The notes under the pieces: generated by a model | What the model was told of the DNA's origin: nothing | What the model saw: only the letters and a program-made list of their open reading frames with translations | Databases searched by the model: none | DNA from: Candidatus Hermodarchaeota archaeon | Lineage (GTDB): Archaea; Asgardarchaeota; Hermodarchaeia; Hermodarchaeales; Hermodarchaeaceae | Direction: 5' to 3' | Assembly: GCA_016840595.1 (NCBI GenBank) | Contig: JAEOSA010000052.1 | Coordinates: 1 to 10,552, forward strand | Length of the DNA: 10,552 nt | Program-made: the position numbers and the translations under genes | In this document: positions 3,325 through 10,552 of the stretch, in pieces | Layout of the letters: every line of letters begins with the position of its first letter | How positions within the stretch are numbered: the stretch's first letter is position 1

Positions 3325-4416
3325 TCATTGGTTAGAGGAACTAGTTCTCCGTTGTAAGCGCTTTTCTCCAATTTCCCGATAGAGCTCAAAAGCATTCGCA
3401 GGTGGAACAACGACCTCAGCTTCATCTTTCTGTTTCAAAGCTAAGGCTTCTGAAGGACAGGTGGTGACACACAACCCACATCCAATGCAATAATCTAGGT
3501 CAATTTTCGCAACGCCTTCCTCCATAGTTATTGCTCCCATTTGACAGCGATCAAGACAGGTTTCACAACCTGTACAATTGTCTACATCAACTTCAGCAAA
3601 ATAATTACTAGCCACGATAGAACTGGGCTTAGGGATTTTCTTTAAAGTCGTCAAAATCTCACAACAACAACCACAGCAATTGCAAATTACGAAGCCTTTT
3701 TGATCGTTACTGGGACTACAGACAAGACCTGCATCGTGAGCCTGATCAAGAATTTCTAATGCTTCATCAGTAGTAATTTCGTGACCATATCCGTTTTCAA
3801 TGTAATAGTAAGCGCCAGTAGAGAAGACCATACATACCTCGTCAGGTTTGTCACATTCATTACCAAGAGCCCGTTTTTCGAGACGACAAATGCAAGGAGC
3901 AATGGCAATTTTGCTCTGCTGCTTCACAATTTCACGAGCATCTTCATAGGGAAGAACGCCCATCGTGGGAGACAAACTGGCATGTACTGGGACCACTCGG
4001 AGTTGAGGTGGGTCAGCAGATGCGACGAGTTCCTCTCGAAGAGCTTCATCCAGATATTGCTCAAAATCCTCAGCCAACTCTTTGGTCATATTTTTAACCT
4101 GATGTTCATAGATTCCAATTGCAAACCATTCAGCACGATATGTAGTGATACCCCCTTTTCGTGCCCGGAAAATCAATCCTTTATTGGCTAATTGTTCGAG
4201 CATCGGTTCAATTTCTTTCGGGTCTTTGTCAATTTTCTGAGCTATCACTTCTAGGGGTTCAGGAATATATGACAAGTGCATTGCCATTTCTGCTTCTTCT
4301 TCGGTGAATAAACGTTTGAGAATGCGTAATTCTACTCCTGACTCCGTTTTGGGAAAACCTACAGGAAGATTATCCAGATGTTCCCGAAGTCGCACATACA
4401 CATCATCAGTTGCCAT
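3325..4416 (-). CDS. Winged-helix-like and cysteine-rich protein with a C-terminal 2x[4Fe-4S] ferredoxin domain
   Basis: Predicted cytoplasmic iron-sulfur protein of 363 residues from ATG at 4416; GTG at 4428 would add four. Residues about 30-95 look like a winged helix (LRILKRLFT, a helix PLEVIAQKI, then a helix ending KGLIFR and a strand GGITTYRAEW). A middle domain holds CICR at 175-178, C188, C195 and the cluster CNCCGCCC at 245-252. The C-terminus has two classical ferredoxin motifs, C281-x2-C284-x2-C287-x3-C291 and C310-x2-C313-x2-C316-x3-C320-P, enough for two [4Fe-4S] clusters. The middle cysteines could hold a further cluster or metal. I know similar proteins in anaerobic archaea and bacteria only as '4Fe-4S binding protein' without a defined role. 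The winged helix may bind DNA or only support folding. A stand-alone electron carrier or redox-sensing regulator are both possible. Confidence 0.82.
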   Translation of the reverse strand: MATDDVYVRLREHLDNLPVGFPKTESGVELRILKRLFTEEEAEMAMHLSYIPEPLEVIAQKIDKDPKEIEPMLEQLANKGLIFRARKGGITTYRAEWFAIGIYEHQVKNMTKELAEDFEQYLDEALREELVASADPPQLRVVPVHASLSPTMGVLPYEDAREIVKQQSKIAIAPCICRLEKRALGNECDKPDEVCMVFSTGAYYYIENGYGHEITTDEALEILDQAHDAGLVCSPSNDQKGFVICNCCGCCCEILTTLKKIPKPSSIVASNYFAEVDVDNCTGCETCLDRCQMGAITMEEGVAKIDLDYCIGCGLCVTTCPSEALALKQKDEAEVVVPPANAFELYREIGEKRLQRRTSSSNQ

Positions 4417-4452
4417 ATCTATCGCCACGAGTGTGACATAGAAGTAGCATAA

Positions 4453-5158: not shown

Positions 5159-6922
5159 TCAGAGTTTTGGAATGGGAATTTCTCCTTCGAAGAAGAAACT
5201 ATTTTTCCGGACATAATTGATGTAGCGACGAATTTCTTGTTGTTTCGTCTTCTGGGACCATCCAAGGATTTGACCCATCCGTGAAGCGGCTACCGCTGCG
5301 ATTTTTCCTTGGTATTCGGGTCGGACAGTCCAACTGACTTCCATACGGCGACACAACACATCCTCCAAACGTAAAGGGGCTTCATTGCGTACAACATAGT
5401 CTACCTCGCCAACTATCCACGGAGCAACCTCAACGGGATATGCTGGTTCGTCTAGTAATCTTTGAGCCATGTCTGGTTGCTGTGAGGCTTCACGGAGAAT
5501 AGTGAGTCCTCCTCGTCCATATTGTTGGTAGAGGTGAAGGAGAATATGTGGGTGAAGTTCTGAGTTCTTGATTTCCGGATGGGATTCCCACTCTTCCTTA
5601 GTAATAGTAATGGCAAAGGCAATCTTAGTAAGGCCCTTTCGTCCGCTAAATTTGGGTAATTCATGTTGGTGTCTGTTCTTTTTGATGTGATTTACTAGTA
5701 AATCCTCTGCCATTTTGCGAAAGGTGGTTAATTTTCCTCCAAGTAGACTATAGAGTCCATCATCTCGTTCTAATACGGTATGTTTCCGTGACACGTCACT
5801 TTCGGCTTTCCCCGTTTCGGCTACTAAGGGGCGAAGACCTGCATACGTGCCATGAATATACTTATCATCGATTTTCGCTTCTGGAAAGAGGATTCTGATA
5901 GTGTTCCGAAGGTAGTCTGCATCTTCACGGGTGCAATAACTCTCAGCTGGGTCCCCCGAAAAATCGGTATCTGTTGTTCCCACGAGTACCCATTCGTTTC
6001 GTCGAATCGCAAAGAAAAAGCGTCTATCATCGATAGAGTTCATAGCAAAAGTGTCATTAATGGGGAAATCCTTTCGGTGATAAACTAAATGAACGCCTTT
6101 AGTAGGTCGAAGAATCTTTGCTTCAACTTCTCGATCAAGGGATAGGAGCTCATCAGCCCACACACCTGTTGTGTTGACGACCACTTTCCCTCTGACTAGG
6201 AAGGGTTCTGAAGTGAGATTATTTTCGTCAATAGCCTCAACCCCATTAATCTGCTGGCCAGAATCACTGGTAAATCCCACCACACGCAAATAGTTCATAG
6301 GAAGAACCTTCCCCTTCCACATCGCCTCCTTGAGAATTTCAATGACAAGCCGTGCATCATCCACATTTGAGTCATACCACATAACAGCGCCTTTCAATCG
6401 GGATGTATTCAAGAGGGGTTCTAAGTCATGAATTAAATTGACTTTCTTGGTGCCCTTCCCCTTCTTGTAACTCTTAAAGCCACTGAGAAGATCGTAGAGA
6501 AACACGCCTAATCGAACGATGCGATAACTCCAGCTCTTTGGCAACTCAAAATTTTCCAGTTGCCCGGCTTCTAGAATTGGATATAAAAATCGGGTTGGTC
6601 GAGTCATATGTGGAAGTCCTTTAGTCCGTAACCAATTCTGTTCGGTGGTTGCTTCCCGAACTAATCCAAATTCAAGTTGAGCGATATACCGGAATCCTCC
6701 ATGAGCAAGTTTCGTTGACCGACTGGACGTACCAAATGCAAAGTCCCTTTGATCAAGGACAGCCACGCTTAATCCGCGATATGCTGCCTCTAGTGCTACA
6801 CCTGCACCATTAATACCCCCTCCAATTACGATGACATCCCAGACTTTTTCCTGTAATTCCTGAAGATGCTGTTGACGGTTAATTTGGTTGAAGGCAAGTG
6901 TATCAATGTTCTTCGGAGGCAT
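5159..6922 (-). CDS. glpD: FAD-dependent glycerol-3-phosphate dehydrogenase, GlpD-type
   Basis: Oxidises sn-glycerol 3-phosphate to dihydroxyacetone phosphate with FAD, passing electrons to quinone or another acceptor, normally at the membrane face. The protein has 587 residues from ATG at 6922. It shows the dinucleotide-binding strand and loop DVIVIGGGINGAG (29-41), the FAD/substrate segment GTSSRSTKLAHGGFRY (64-79), RPTKGVH (272-278), GTTDTDF (315-321), AGLRPL (361-366) and GGKLTTFRKMAE (395-406). The DAO_C helical domain covers about the last 140 residues. There is no C-terminal [2Fe-2S] BFD domain, so it is like GlpD and unlike GlpA. Codon 1 could also be ATG at 6943 or TTG at 6973; I chose 6922 because the TATA-like AATAAGATAGAATA just upstream would give a short leader there. 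An N-terminal extension of some 25 residues precedes the Rossmann fold. Confidence 0.93.
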   Translation of the reverse strand: MPPKNIDTLAFNQINRQQHLQELQEKVWDVIVIGGGINGAGVALEAAYRGLSVAVLDQRDFAFGTSSRSTKLAHGGFRYIAQLEFGLVREATTEQNWLRTKGLPHMTRPTRFLYPILEAGQLENFELPKSWSYRIVRLGVFLYDLLSGFKSYKKGKGTKKVNLIHDLEPLLNTSRLKGAVMWYDSNVDDARLVIEILKEAMWKGKVLPMNYLRVVGFTSDSGQQINGVEAIDENNLTSEPFLVRGKVVVNTTGVWADELLSLDREVEAKILRPTKGVHLVYHRKDFPINDTFAMNSIDDRRFFFAIRRNEWVLVGTTDTDFSGDPAESYCTREDADYLRNTIRILFPEAKIDDKYIHGTYAGLRPLVAETGKAESDVSRKHTVLERDDGLYSLLGGKLTTFRKMAEDLLVNHIKKNRHQHELPKFSGRKGLTKIAFAITITKEEWESHPEIKNSELHPHILLHLYQQYGRGGLTILREASQQPDMAQRLLDEPAYPVEVAPWIVGEVDYVVRNEAPLRLEDVLCRRMEVSWTVRPEYQGKIAAVAASRMGQILGWSQKTKQQEIRRYINYVRKNSFFFEGEIPIPKL

Positions 6923-7099
6923 GATGTTGCACCAGTTCTTCATGCCGTATTCTATCTTATTCAGTTTTACCAAAGGACAAAATTATCCGAGTATAAGCGC
7001 TCTGAAATTCATTCACAACAAAATACTTTAGTAAAGCGAGGTGGGGAGGAATCTTGTACCCGTTCGAATAGGTCGGGATTGCGAAGAGGTCCTAGGGCT
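6923..7099. promoter_or_regulatory. Divergent control region between glpD and the longin-like gene
   Basis: This 177-bp gap must hold both promoters. On the minus strand AATAAGATAGAATA (about 6962-6949) is the best TATA-like site for glpD. On the plus strand AAATACTTTAG (about 7021-7031) is the best candidate for the longin-GTPase unit. Between the latter and the chosen start lies a purine-rich stretch, GAGGTGGGGAGGAA (7038-7051), that looks like a strong ribosome site but is followed only by a TTG whose frame stops after five codons. Confidence 0.4.
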
Positions 7100-7921
7100 T
7101 TGACCGTTCATAGCTTCTACGTCGTCGGATTACGAGAAGGTTTCCCACTTTATAGTCGCAGGTGGACCCAATCCGATGTGGATAGTGCCCTCCTCTCTGG
7201 TTTTCTTGCCAGCATGGAACACATGGCTCAACAAGTAGCAGCCCAACACGTTAACGTCGTCAACATGAAGGATCGTCGCTTCTTTTTCCAAATCGACGAA
7301 GAAAACGGATTACTCCTTGTCTTTATCACCGATGTTAGCGAAAGTGCAGCGAGGTTCCGTAAATACCTCGGCATCCTTAATACACAATTCGTTAAAATGT
7401 TCCAAGAACAACTCGAAATCCTCCACAAAGAAGGCGCAACCGATACAACTCTCTTCAACAACTTTGACGAGTTTATCGATGATTTAGTTCTTACATGGTG
7501 GATGGGTGAAACGACTGTTTCTGCTGCAAAAGTCATGGATGTCTTCGAAATCTTCACCCTTTTCTATAACACTCTCCTGCAACGATTCCTCACAGAAGTG
7601 TCTCGCCGAACCTACGATAAAGAAATCCAAGTGATCTTCAAGGACAAAACGAAAAAACTTCCTGCTCTCAAAGGAGTCAAGATGGACACATCTGGTGTTG
7701 TAACCTACGCCTCAATCGACCCCCAACAAATTAAATACCCCCACTTGCGTCAAGTCCTTTTTGACATCTTCCACGAACTTGTCTTACTCACCCGAAAGAC
7801 TATGCCAAAACAAACCTACCAATCCCTCGTCTTCAAACACTTCAGCCCACTCATCCGAACGGAACAAGATCGGCTCAAAACCTACTCATTAACAGAAAGA
7901 ATTGTGTTGGATATCCTATGA
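7100..7921 (+). CDS. Longin-like domain protein with an unassigned C-terminal half, coupled to a Rab-like GTPase
   Basis: Predicted soluble protein of 273 residues. The N-terminal 110 residues fit a beta-beta-alpha-beta-beta-alpha order: strands at 4-11 (HSFYVVGL) and 14-22 (GFPLYSRRW), a long helix at 26-47 containing LLSGFLASME, strands at about 51-66 and 70-79 (LLLVFITDV), and a long helix at 81-108. Starting with two strands points to a longin fold and away from roadblock, whose first element is a helix. Residues 118-273 are mostly helical with a strand-rich stretch near 175-207, and I do not recognise them. Longin-fold proteins bind or regulate small GTPases (Mon1-Ccz1, TRAPP, SRX). The stop overlaps the GTPase start as ATGA, so the two are made together. 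The start is uncertain: TTG 7100 has AGAGGT upstream, TTG 7079 is also in frame, and no ATG lies in a likely place. Confidence 0.72.
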   Translation: MTVHSFYVVGLREGFPLYSRRWTQSDVDSALLSGFLASMEHMAQQVAAQHVNVVNMKDRRFFFQIDEENGLLLVFITDVSESAARFRKYLGILNTQFVKMFQEQLEILHKEGATDTTLFNNFDEFIDDLVLTWWMGETTVSAAKVMDVFEIFTLFYNTLLQRFLTEVSRRTYDKEIQVIFKDKTKKLPALKGVKMDTSGVVTYASIDPQQIKYPHLRQVLFDIFHELVLLTRKTMPKQTYQSLVFKHFSPLIRTEQDRLKTYSLTERIVLDIL

Positions 7922-8472
7922 GCAATCCTACAGAAAGCACTACTCAACCCATTGCCACGAAACGACCATACACACACATTGCCAAGGCGGTTGTAGTTGG
8001 TGACGCTGCAGTGGGAAAAACTAGCCTCCTCGTCCGCTATGTGAAAGGCATCTTCAATCCTACATATATTCTCACTATTGGAGTTGCTTTTCATGTAAAA
8101 GACATCATTCTCGGTGAAAACGTGCTAAGAATGCAGATTTGGGACACTGGAGGTCAAGAGCGGTTTGGACCCATTCGCCAACTCTATTATCGTGGAACCA
8201 AGGGCGTCTTACTGGTCTATGATCGAGCGAACCGAACTAGCTTCGAAAGAGCCGCATATTGGCTGAAGGAAGTGCGCCGGGGTTGTGGCGATGTTCCAGT
8301 AATCTTAGTGGCGAACAAAGCGGATTTGGACGCAGTGGTAAAGCCTGAGGAAGGACAAAAATTTGCCGAAGAACACTCGATCAGTTTCGTCGAAACTAGT
8401 GCAAAAACGGATTTGAATACTGATCTGGTCTTTTCAATTTTAGCAGGACAGGTTATCGAGAACGTGGGTTAA
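7918..8472 (+). CDS. Rab-like small GTPase (Ras superfamily)
   Basis: GTP-binding switch protein of 184 residues. All guanine-nucleotide motifs are present: G1 GDAAVGKT (28-35), the switch I threonine T53 in a Rab-like TIGVAF, G3 WDTGGQERF (75-83), G4 NKAD (133-136) and G5 ETSAK (159-163). YYRGTKGVLLVYD (90-102) is also strongly Rab-like, so of the Ras superfamily branches Rab is the closest by eye. Two differences stand out. G3 reads DTGGQ where Rab has DTAGQ, like the DxGGQ of Arf and G-alpha, and the C-terminus ends VIENVG with no cysteine, so it cannot be prenylated at its tail like Rab. Gln80, the usual catalytic residue, is kept. A polar leader of about 20 residues precedes strand 1. 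It overlaps the longin-like gene by 4 bp and probably depends on it for translation. It converges with the DUF4443 gene. Confidence 0.93.
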   Translation: MSNPTESTTQPIATKRPYTHIAKAVVVGDAAVGKTSLLVRYVKGIFNPTYILTIGVAFHVKDIILGENVLRMQIWDTGGQERFGPIRQLYYRGTKGVLLVYDRANRTSFERAAYWLKEVRRGCGDVPVILVANKADLDAVVKPEEGQKFAEEHSISFVETSAKTDLNTDLVFSILAGQVIENVG

Positions 8473-9155: not shown

Positions 9156-9779
9156 TCACATATCATTATTATTCTTTATCGGTGCGTGCCTCTTGAATTG
9201 TAGGTGTCCAATATTGAGTTGCATAGCAATACGTGAAATTGCTGGAGTAAGCAGACCGAAGAGAATACCATTGGTCGTCATATGCAGGACCATAAAAGGC
9301 AATCCAGTGAATAATGTGATCACAAAGGGAACAACAAAGGTAATGCTGTACGCCAAGTTCGTAACTAGGTCGTAAAACAGAGTAATTATGACACCAAAAA
9401 ATGCAGGCCAAAGATACCAGCGTAAGGGGATTTTTCCCCTGGTGGCTGAAAGCTGAAAATTTCGACCTAGTATTCCGCCTACCAAACCAATGAACATAGT
9501 ACAACCAATTACTGCAAAACCAATAGGCGGGAGAAATGCACCCCAAGGGTTCCACAGTTGGTAAATAGTCATTGCAATAAGACCAGTTAAGATCCCAATC
9601 AATGGACCAAAGAGAAAGCCACTGAGAAACACCATTACTGATGACAATTCCACATTAGGAATAGCGGATAAGGCATAATTTCCACCAATGGCTAGTGCCG
9701 CTAAAATCGCTATAAGCGCTACATTCACGGCGAGGCTATTCGTCTGGGAAATCTCGTCTTTTCCTGATGTGTTCAACAA
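9156..9779 (-). CDS. ECF-type transporter S component (substrate-binding membrane subunit)
   Basis: Integral membrane protein of about 207 residues with six predicted helices, at roughly 17-38, 46-73, 83-103, 122-138, 142-162 and 165-185. The segment AIPNVELSSVMVFLSGFLFG followed by GxLxG and an aromatic loop, and the later FYDLVTNLAYS, are typical of S components of energy-coupling factor transporters, which bind a vitamin or other small solute and join a shared EcfT-EcfA energising module. The substrate cannot be read from sequence. No EcfA ATPase or T subunit is in the window. Starts are TTG at 9785, 9779 or 9776. I chose 9779 because AAGGA lies 7 nt before it; 9785 would give a TTGA overlap with the upstream stop. 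Either way it is tightly linked to the secreted-protein gene upstream. Confidence 0.78.
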   Translation of the reverse strand: MLNTSGKDEISQTNSLAVNVALIAILAALAIGGNYALSAIPNVELSSVMVFLSGFLFGPLIGILTGLIAMTIYQLWNPWGAFLPPIGFAVIGCTMFIGLVGGILGRNFQLSATRGKIPLRWYLWPAFFGVIITLFYDLVTNLAYSITFVVPFVITLFTGLPFMVLHMTTNGILFGLLTPAISRIAMQLNIGHLQFKRHAPIKNNNDM

Positions 9780-9781
9780 TA

Positions 9782-10495
9782 TCAATTCCTTACATTTGGA
9801 CGTCGAATCACTACAAAGGCAACGATTAGGCTGATGAATATGGCTGATAGGAGAATTCCAAAGTAAGTCGTGCCAGTTGGGACTTGAGTAACTCCAACAT
9901 ATTCAACGCCAAGATGATAATCATTCAGGAAGAAGAATTCCGTGTACCCTTCGAGGAGAATGCCTGTTTGTTTATCATAAATTAAAGTGGTGTTTTGATT
10001 TCCTGGCGCTGCTTGATGGTAAATGTAACTTTTCGTGGTTGTAGTCGTTAGGATCTCTAATTCTCCTACAAGTAATCCTGAGGCAGCATCAGATGCTCTT
10101 TGGTCAACGGTAGCCCAAGTCAGATGTGAAATTAATCCTGGAAACCACGGCCAAATACTGAATGCTAGTTCGGCTGCAATACGAGAATCATTCGTAGGAA
10201 TTGTGAGGTTTCCTATTATGAAAATCCCATGCACTTCTGCATCAGCAAGCTGATTGATATTAAAGACAATATGCTGATTTTCGGTTGCCTGCCAAAATGC
10301 ACCTGAACCAAACCCCCATTCTACTACTTCGCTGGTAACATTGTTAATTCGCCATTCTACAGTTTTATTGAAAAATGGTGTAGGTGCAACAGCTGAGGAG
10401 TAGGCGAAATCCTGAGCTGGAACCTTTTGAACAGATCCCAATAGCAATACTAAGATGAAAACACAAATTAGGATAATAGGGTTTTTTGAACGCAT
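9782..10495 (-). CDS. Secreted, membrane-anchored protein of unknown function
   Basis: Exported protein of 237 residues with a signal peptide (MRSKN, hydrophobic core PIILICVFILVLLLG, likely cut after VPA near residue 28) and a C-terminal membrane helix at about 210-229 followed by RRPNVRN. The positive tail puts the body outside and the tail inside. The outer domain of about 180 residues is rich in strands and aromatics and has five N-glycosylation sequons (NKT, NVT, NLT, NDS, NTT), as in archaeal surface proteins. Motifs such as YDKQTGILLEG recur in Asgard surface proteins I remember, but I cannot name a family. ATG at 10495 follows a GGTG ribosome site at 8-nt spacing and begins the signal peptide cleanly; an in-frame TTG at 10525 is less likely. 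It probably works with the S component whose start overlaps or abuts its stop. Confidence 0.72.
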   Translation of the reverse strand: MRSKNPIILICVFILVLLLGSVQKVPAQDFAYSSAVAPTPFFNKTVEWRINNVTSEVVEWGFGSGAFWQATENQHIVFNINQLADAEVHGIFIIGNLTIPTNDSRIAAELAFSIWPWFPGLISHLTWATVDQRASDAASGLLVGELEILTTTTTKSYIYHQAAPGNQNTTLIYDKQTGILLEGYTEFFFLNDYHLGVEYVGVTQVPTGTTYFGILLSAIFISLIVAFVVIRRPNVRN

Positions 10496-10502
10496 TCTTT
10501 TT

Positions 10503-10552
10503 TCACCGCATTCGCCGACTAACAAATAGTGCCAAGAAGATAATGAAAATGC
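10503..10552 (-). CDS. Possible C-terminal tail of an upstream membrane protein, cut by the window edge
   Basis: In one minus-strand frame the right edge reads IFIIFLALFVSRRMR then TGA (10505-10503): a hydrophobic run followed by a positive tail, as at the end of a membrane-anchored protein. The stop lies 7 nt before the next gene's ATG and overlaps its ribosome site, as in an operon. Only 15 residues are visible, and the frame of the secreted protein is also open to the edge, so this is tentative. Confidence 0.35.
   Translation of the reverse strand, partial: IFIIFLALFVSRRMR

Follow-up and report, generated by a model that had tools for sequence, protein, structure and literature searches.

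The window analysed here, a stretch of 10,552 nucleotides from a Candidatus Hermodarchaeota archaeon (contig JAEOSA010000052.1), carries a gene for a longin-domain protein and, overlapping its stop codon in the tetranucleotide ATGA, a gene for a Rab-like small GTPase. This is a real two-gene pair and apparently an unreported one: no report of a conserved overlapping longin/Rab-like pair in archaea was found in the titles and abstracts of the open-licence literature (subscription papers and preprints lie outside this scope). The ATGA overlap between a longin-type and a GTPase gene, described in an earlier note made from the letters of this DNA, is exact in coordinates, strand and extent (7918-7921), and with 16 of 16 junctions preserved it is more than a chance arrangement. 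A physical partnership of the two proteins is probable, and exchange activity of the longin on its partner GTPase is the most likely effect, tentatively held. In eukaryotes, most longin platforms for Rab-type GTPases serve as exchange factors.

Conservation and divergence of the pair

An alignment of longin relatives (A1) matches 135 of the 227 genomes of the phylum (E up to 0.001). Close relatives of the longin, 17 copies in all, are held by eight Hermodarchaeota-type genomes (G001-G004 and G068-G071). The ATGA junction to a Rab-like GTPase is present at all 15 complete copies and in the window (16/16); two longins truncated at the edge of a contig (G068:C262 and, on G071:C203, the second copy) are left out of this count, and as the window and G001 copies are near-identical, the 16 junctions represent about 15 independent ones. 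Coupled longins as divergent as 30% identity to that of the window still carry the ATGA, and in the B copy of G004 the GTPase runs off the contig with its start visible. No constant motif for a ribosome site 5' of the GTPase start is apparent among the junctions, as inspected by eye. The longins fall into groups A (window type, six copies), B (four), x and y (two each, in G070 and G071), with two more divergent copies in G069. Among 11 window proteins searched, only the longin and the GTPase find matches at the B, x and y loci. Thus, the conserved unit is the pair and not the neighbourhood, and the junction has come through two or more duplications (A/B in one clade and x/y in the second), whereas the other neighbours have changed. 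A close relative, Candidatus Hermodarchaeum yapensis (L001), has 95.6% identity in the longin and 97.3% in the GTPase.

The two proteins have diverged in parallel. Over 16 pairs, the distances among longins and those among GTPases show a correlation of r 0.93, a value reached by 0 of 2000 permutations; of the 128 ways of assigning partners within the seven genomes with two pairs, the true one gives the highest correlation (next 0.915). The correlation is 0.91 without the window copy (15 pairs) and 0.92 with G069 removed as well (13 pairs), and falls to 0.82 with one A and one B copy (8 pairs). Together with longin-GTPase fusions elsewhere, these distances support the idea, put forward in the earlier note, of a regulator and its own GTPase. 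In a tree with three outside GTPases, the linked GTPases group together (support 86/91); they are not established as a single clade, because with more GTPases included the deep branching is poorly supported (31/79) and long branches come together.

The earlier note had also proposed a search for the same adjacent pair in other Asgard genomes; adjacency is conserved within the eight Hermodarchaeota-type genomes, but not at the other Asgard loci examined. These are 57 loci from the A1 search in genomes other than the eight (L019-L040, L046-L080) and 60 Asgard places matching Pfam family PF19036 (Fuz_longin_1, the first longin of FUZ, MON1 and HPS1; curated cut-off 26.1 bits), taken down the match list and mostly one per genome. 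Flanks of 1.5-2.5 kb were inspected, less at contig ends (33 bp downstream in L061), and GTPases were sought with the window's own sequence or a 67-relative profile, a search that very divergent GTPases may escape. Of the 57 loci, two (L070, L071) have longin-GTPase fusions; L072, L073 and L075 have a neighbouring GTPase on the same strand, L064 has one past an intervening open reading frame (ORF) and L057 one on the opposite strand. Three fusions are found in the 60-locus set (L113, L124, L171) and a fusion next door in L156, by profile only; L127 has a GTPase on the same strand, and in L114 one lies upstream of a second longin. In the L070 fusion, a longin scoring 27.8 bits, over the PF19036 cut-off, is followed by an Arf/Ras-type GTPase.

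Several loci have arrangements of their own. A cluster on one strand (L044:2532-6976, G070:C56) reads longin-GTPase, GTPase, GTPase, longin-GTPase, and is possibly a multi-GTPase operon with two longin paralogues. At L045:1-1326 (G069:C331), an open-ended ORF of 441 aa lies 126 bp upstream of a longin-GTPase pair; inspected by eye, this ORF looks extracellular in one part and has a membrane-spanning segment, and Pfam gives no match. One stretch of it resembles a longin, at E 5e-3 by profile and E 4e-5 by tblastn with the window's longin. Of the 22 loci L019-L040, 20 have a full-length relative of the longin flanked by members of two conserved gene families, identified in L020 as a methyltransferase and TFIIB. 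Two longin paralogues of the family stand side by side on the same strand in L058, L059 and L060, with no GTPase found nearby, and are candidate heterodimer genes judging from their arrangement. Two small longin ORFs share a 4-nt mutual overlap at L117:1568-2436 (G138:C96) and are 7 bp apart in L118 (G136:C57). In L072, L073 and L075 a small longin gene lies 29-97 bp downstream of a GTPase ORF of 533-586 aa, which in L072 and L075 has, by eye, a long acidic tail and a zinc-ribbon-like C-terminus.

Predicted fold of the longin protein and relatives of the GTPase

The longin frame is open upstream to an ATG at 6866. Among 34 relatives, 15 begin at the aligned residue and have a length of exactly 273 aa, and the others are shorter, longer or truncated; the likely start is therefore the TTG at 7100. 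In an AlphaFold2 model from 50 sequences (predicted local distance difference test (pLDDT) 85.3, predicted template modelling score (pTM) 0.59, residues 44-49 under pLDDT 50), the elements are β1 5-10, β2 16-21, α1 27-42, β3 52-56, β4 59-66, β5 71-78, α2 83-111 and α3 116-163. Residues 1-138 thereby show the canonical longin order β1-β2-α1-β3-β4-β5-α2-α3, which bears out the longin-type strand and helix order proposed in the earlier note; the longin fold of residues 1-110, its own check, is likewise predicted and matched structurally. Solved longin domains are matched by VIA-align with Z scores of 14.8 (SRα), 14.5 (Sec22b), 14.0 (VAMP7), 13.9 (TRAPP), 13.4 (SRX of SRβ-GTP/SRX), 13.1 (Ykt6), 12.9 (Fuzzy) and about 11 to 13 (adaptor subunits). 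Since rows at most 1 Z apart are tied, the longin fold of the 7100..7921 product is well supported as a prediction, and the structural ranking does not resolve its longin class. Among the matches are structures in which a longin protein stands beside a small GTPase: 5ck3 (SRβ-GTP/SRX), 9rs9 (Rab23-Fuzzy-Inturned), 7kmt (TRAPPIII-Ypt1) and 5ldd (Mon1-Ccz1-Ypt7).

The only Pfam match of the longin protein is PF19036, with 24.4 bits (E 3.6e-5), which falls below the cut-off. The family matches 20 of 20 members of alignment A1 (E up to 1) and 31 of 37 members of a more diverse alignment, A2 (E up to 0.1). PF19031 (the CCZ1/HPS4/INTU type) exceeds its cut-off in none of the eight genomes, which are possibly incomplete; one of the eight has a match at E 0.047, and one A1 member matches at E 0.083. 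In place of the three longin domains per chain of MON1, HPS1 and FUZ, the 273 aa hold one. Thus, the 7100..7921 product is by its predicted fold a longin protein, and with one longin domain and a sub-cut-off PF19036 match its membership of the MON1/HPS1/FUZ group is not established.

Residues 139-273 are alignable across diverse relatives and are helical with a two-strand hairpin. Predicted alone they are again helical, with modest confidence (pLDDT 71.5, 7 rows), and a fold search with this model finds nothing in the PDB at E 0.001 or lower, which is no proof of a new fold. A second longin in the C-terminal half is unsupported on both counts. When the A2 profile is compared with PDB sequences, a designed helical protein comes first (E 0.00088, through the helical part), followed by coatomer delta (0.0068) and MON1A (0.036, 0.057), all marginal. 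Arginines conserved in the coupled longin set are R60 and R85 (14/15) and R258 (15/15). Among viral contigs, 70 stretches were considered as longin relatives and none was confirmed; plasmids gave none.

The GTPase has all of G1-G5 with the switch II Gln, and scores 171.9 bits against Ras PF00071 (cut-off 21.6). Its best PDB sequence relatives are Rab35, Rab1a, Rab10 and Sec4 (best E 5.4e-40); among the best 60 of 800 PDB matches, 59 carry the name Rab or Sec4 and the remaining one is GH01619p, so that its nearest solved relatives are Rabs. The Rab motifs IGVDF and WDTAGQ read IGVAF and WDTGGQ here. The protein ends in AGQVIENVG, with no C-terminal cysteine for prenylation, as is described for MK-D1 GTPases in PMC10933270. 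The "full set of Rab-like motifs" of the earlier note therefore holds for a complete G1-G5, and is slightly strong in view of the two altered motifs and the missing cysteine.

Table 1. Features of the longin/GTPase pair in the window.
Feature	Position	Strand	Basis
Longin-domain protein, 273 aa, TTG start, TGA stop	7100..7921	+	ORF list, relatives' alignment, AlphaFold2
N-terminal longin domain (predicted), aa 1-138	7100..7513	+	AlphaFold2; VIA-align; Pfam PF19036 below cut-off
C-terminal helical domain and short hairpin (predicted), aa 139-273	7514..7918	+	Diverse-relative alignment, AlphaFold2
ATGA overlap, GTPase gene start and longin gene stop	7918..7921	+	16/16 pairs
Rab-like small GTPase, 184 aa, without C-terminal cysteine	7918..8472	+	ORF; Ras PF00071, 171.9 bits; PDB sequence matches
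G1 / P-loop GDAAVGKT, from aa 28	7999..8022	+	Motif reading
G2 / switch I TIGVAF, aa 53	8074..8091	+	Motif reading
G3 / switch II WDTGGQERF, aa 75, Gln kept	8140..8166	+	Motif reading
G4 NKAD, aa 133	8314..8325	+	Motif reading
G5 TSAK, aa 160	8395..8406	+	Motif reading

Elsewhere in the window, a gene at 5159-6973 resembles those of glycerol-3-phosphate oxidases/dehydrogenases (Pfam matches DAO and DAO_C; NCBIfam scores under the cut-offs), and in both archaeal clades such a gene stands next to the GTPase locus in divergent orientation (window; L086-L088). The minus-strand ORFs 9156-9785 and 9782-10525, which share 4 nt, are an ECF transporter-like gene and one of unknown function; a DUF4443 gene with a winged-helix-like N-terminus adjoins them. 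One 4Fe-4S protein gene is present (3325-4428), where there are two tandem copies in L001:1133-3325 (77% and 57% identity to the window's gene) and L004:1133-3324 (75% and 61%); apart from this, the gene order of L001 is that of the window.

Proposed partnership and exchange, and alternatives

We propose that the pair is a two-gene switch module, in which the longin would be the dedicated partner of the Rab-like GTPase encoded by the next, overlapping frame. The longin would probably dimerise, with itself or with the longin of the genome's second pair; a face of the dimer would bind the GTPase near its switches, and this binding would most likely promote GDP/GTP exchange. Translational coupling, dimerisation and direct binding are steps that we infer. 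Exchange is taken as the likeliest effect because it is the function of most longin platforms associated with Rab-type GTPases (PMC10933270). A more specific version, in which the two longin paralogues of a genome (A and B, or x and y, which in L044 share a contig) heterodimerise and activate both co-encoded Rab-like GTPases, would make the module a minimal archaeal counterpart, possibly an ancestral relic, of Rab exchange factors of the Mon1-Ccz1 type, with the genetic link to its Rabs retained; this is improbable.

A number of observations weigh against a dedicated, exchange-promoting longin. Three genomes (G069, G070 and G071) keep an A-type GTPase at the locus with the longin absent (L086-L088), and an obligate pair is therefore rejected. 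These orphan GTPases have 57-60% identity to that of the window, cluster with the A GTPases (support 82/92) and are separated by 155-166 bp from the divergently oriented glycerol-3-phosphate oxidase gene; in L087 and L088 the GTPase is followed by DUF4443 and ECF genes, and L086 ends just past it. As orphans at the same locus group with A, either these genomes have lost the longin or the other clade has gained it. In some clusters (L044, L016/L098), GTPases outnumber longins; these extra copies, with the three longin-less genomes, weaken the earlier suggestion that the two proteins are made in fixed ratio. No longin/GTPase overlap was seen in the inspected flanks of the 57 A1 loci or the 60 PF19036 loci, which rejects a general Asgard linkage, and full-length relatives elsewhere in Asgards have no directly adjacent Rab-like GTPase in the flanks seen. 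Physical linkage and joint duplication alone could yield the correlated divergence, and the two G069 pairs are placed differently in the longin and GTPase trees. The sequences carry no mark of exchange, and the roles of guanine nucleotide exchange factor (GEF), GTPase-activating protein (GAP) and effector are not told apart by them; in fold, SRα, SNARE and adaptor longins equal or outrank GEF longins. PF19036 is also generic in Asgards, matching 170 of 227 genomes (E up to 1e-3; 104 over cut-off), with many of the matches listed being ORFs of 130-180 aa. This breadth weakens MON1-specific descent as read from the Pfam match, and Mon1-Ccz1 ancestry of the pair is weakly supported. With a generic family, a single longin domain where three would be expected and GEF, GAP and effector roles that are not distinguished, the forerunner of a Rab-GEF module envisaged in the earlier note is possible only.

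The same two genes allow other relationships. The longin may bind the GTP form of the GTPase as an effector or receptor, being recruited or held by it and leaving the nucleotide unchanged, as the SRα longin (SRX) does with SRβ and adaptor subunits do with Arf; the tied fold scores suit this reading as well, which we consider rather doubtful. Mere co-expression, with two genes of one operon duplicated together and products that make no contact, is unlikely. It would be compatible with the ordinariness of 4-nt overlaps (there is another in the window, at 9782-9785), with a shared history of linked genes by descent and with the survival of an A-type GTPase without a longin; however, it does not readily account for a junction that outlived at least two duplications amid changing neighbours, nor for the longin-GTPase fusions of other Asgards. 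Least probable among these is a GTPase-activating partner, the longin counterpart of bacterial MglA-MglB, in which a GTPase gene is accompanied by that of a roadblock-fold GAP. Longin GAP complexes do exist (FLCN-FNIP), with a review on them among the references of PMC10933270, and the switch II Gln is retained. The gene logic, too, is that of MglA-MglB, where 390 of 449 MglA are coupled to MglB in co-evolving groups (PMC4316618). The predicted fold is, however, longin and not roadblock (AlphaFold2, VIA-align), and no arginine finger has been identified, the conserved R60, R85 and R258 not being placed relative to the GTPase.

Significance and comparison with known systems

Asgard archaea have dozens of Rab-like GTPases whose regulators are to be matched. 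Partners are hard to match because, according to a structural survey (PMC10933270), the GTPase genes of strain MK-D1 lie generally outside operons of roadblock, longin or TRAPPC3 genes. The longin/GTPase module names a likely partner for one such GTPase, as a matched pair in several paralogous copies that is small enough for direct biochemistry, and it could reveal whether longin control of Rab-like switches predates eukaryotes.

Among systems already described, the pair is unlike Mon1-Ccz1, HPS1-HPS4 and Fuzzy-Inturned in having one longin domain and not three, and in lacking a CCZ1/INTU/HPS4-type longin over the cut-off in all eight genomes (0/8). SRβ is Arf-like and membrane-anchored; unlike the SRα longin (SRX)-SRβ pair, there is no SRP-GTPase part here. 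Longin or roadblock domains fused to GTPases have been described for MK-D1, mostly with Rag/Arf-like GTPases (PMC10933270). Such Asgard fusions combine the same two kinds of domain, and L070 has the same order of longin then GTPase, but they are single chains, with an Arf/Ras-type GTPase in L070, whereas here there are two chains and a Rab-like GTPase. In MglA-MglB, a small GTPase is genomically coupled to a partner of the roadblock/longin superfamily and both diverge together (PMC4316618), and the same coupling and joint divergence are found here. The partner does not have the roadblock fold of MglB, as the N-terminal helix is absent, the element order is that of longins and the top fold matches are longins. 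The present pair differs further in the added helical domain, the Rab-like GTPase and the overlapping genes. By analogy, MglA-MglB is nonetheless its nearest working model, with a longin taking the place of the roadblock protein.
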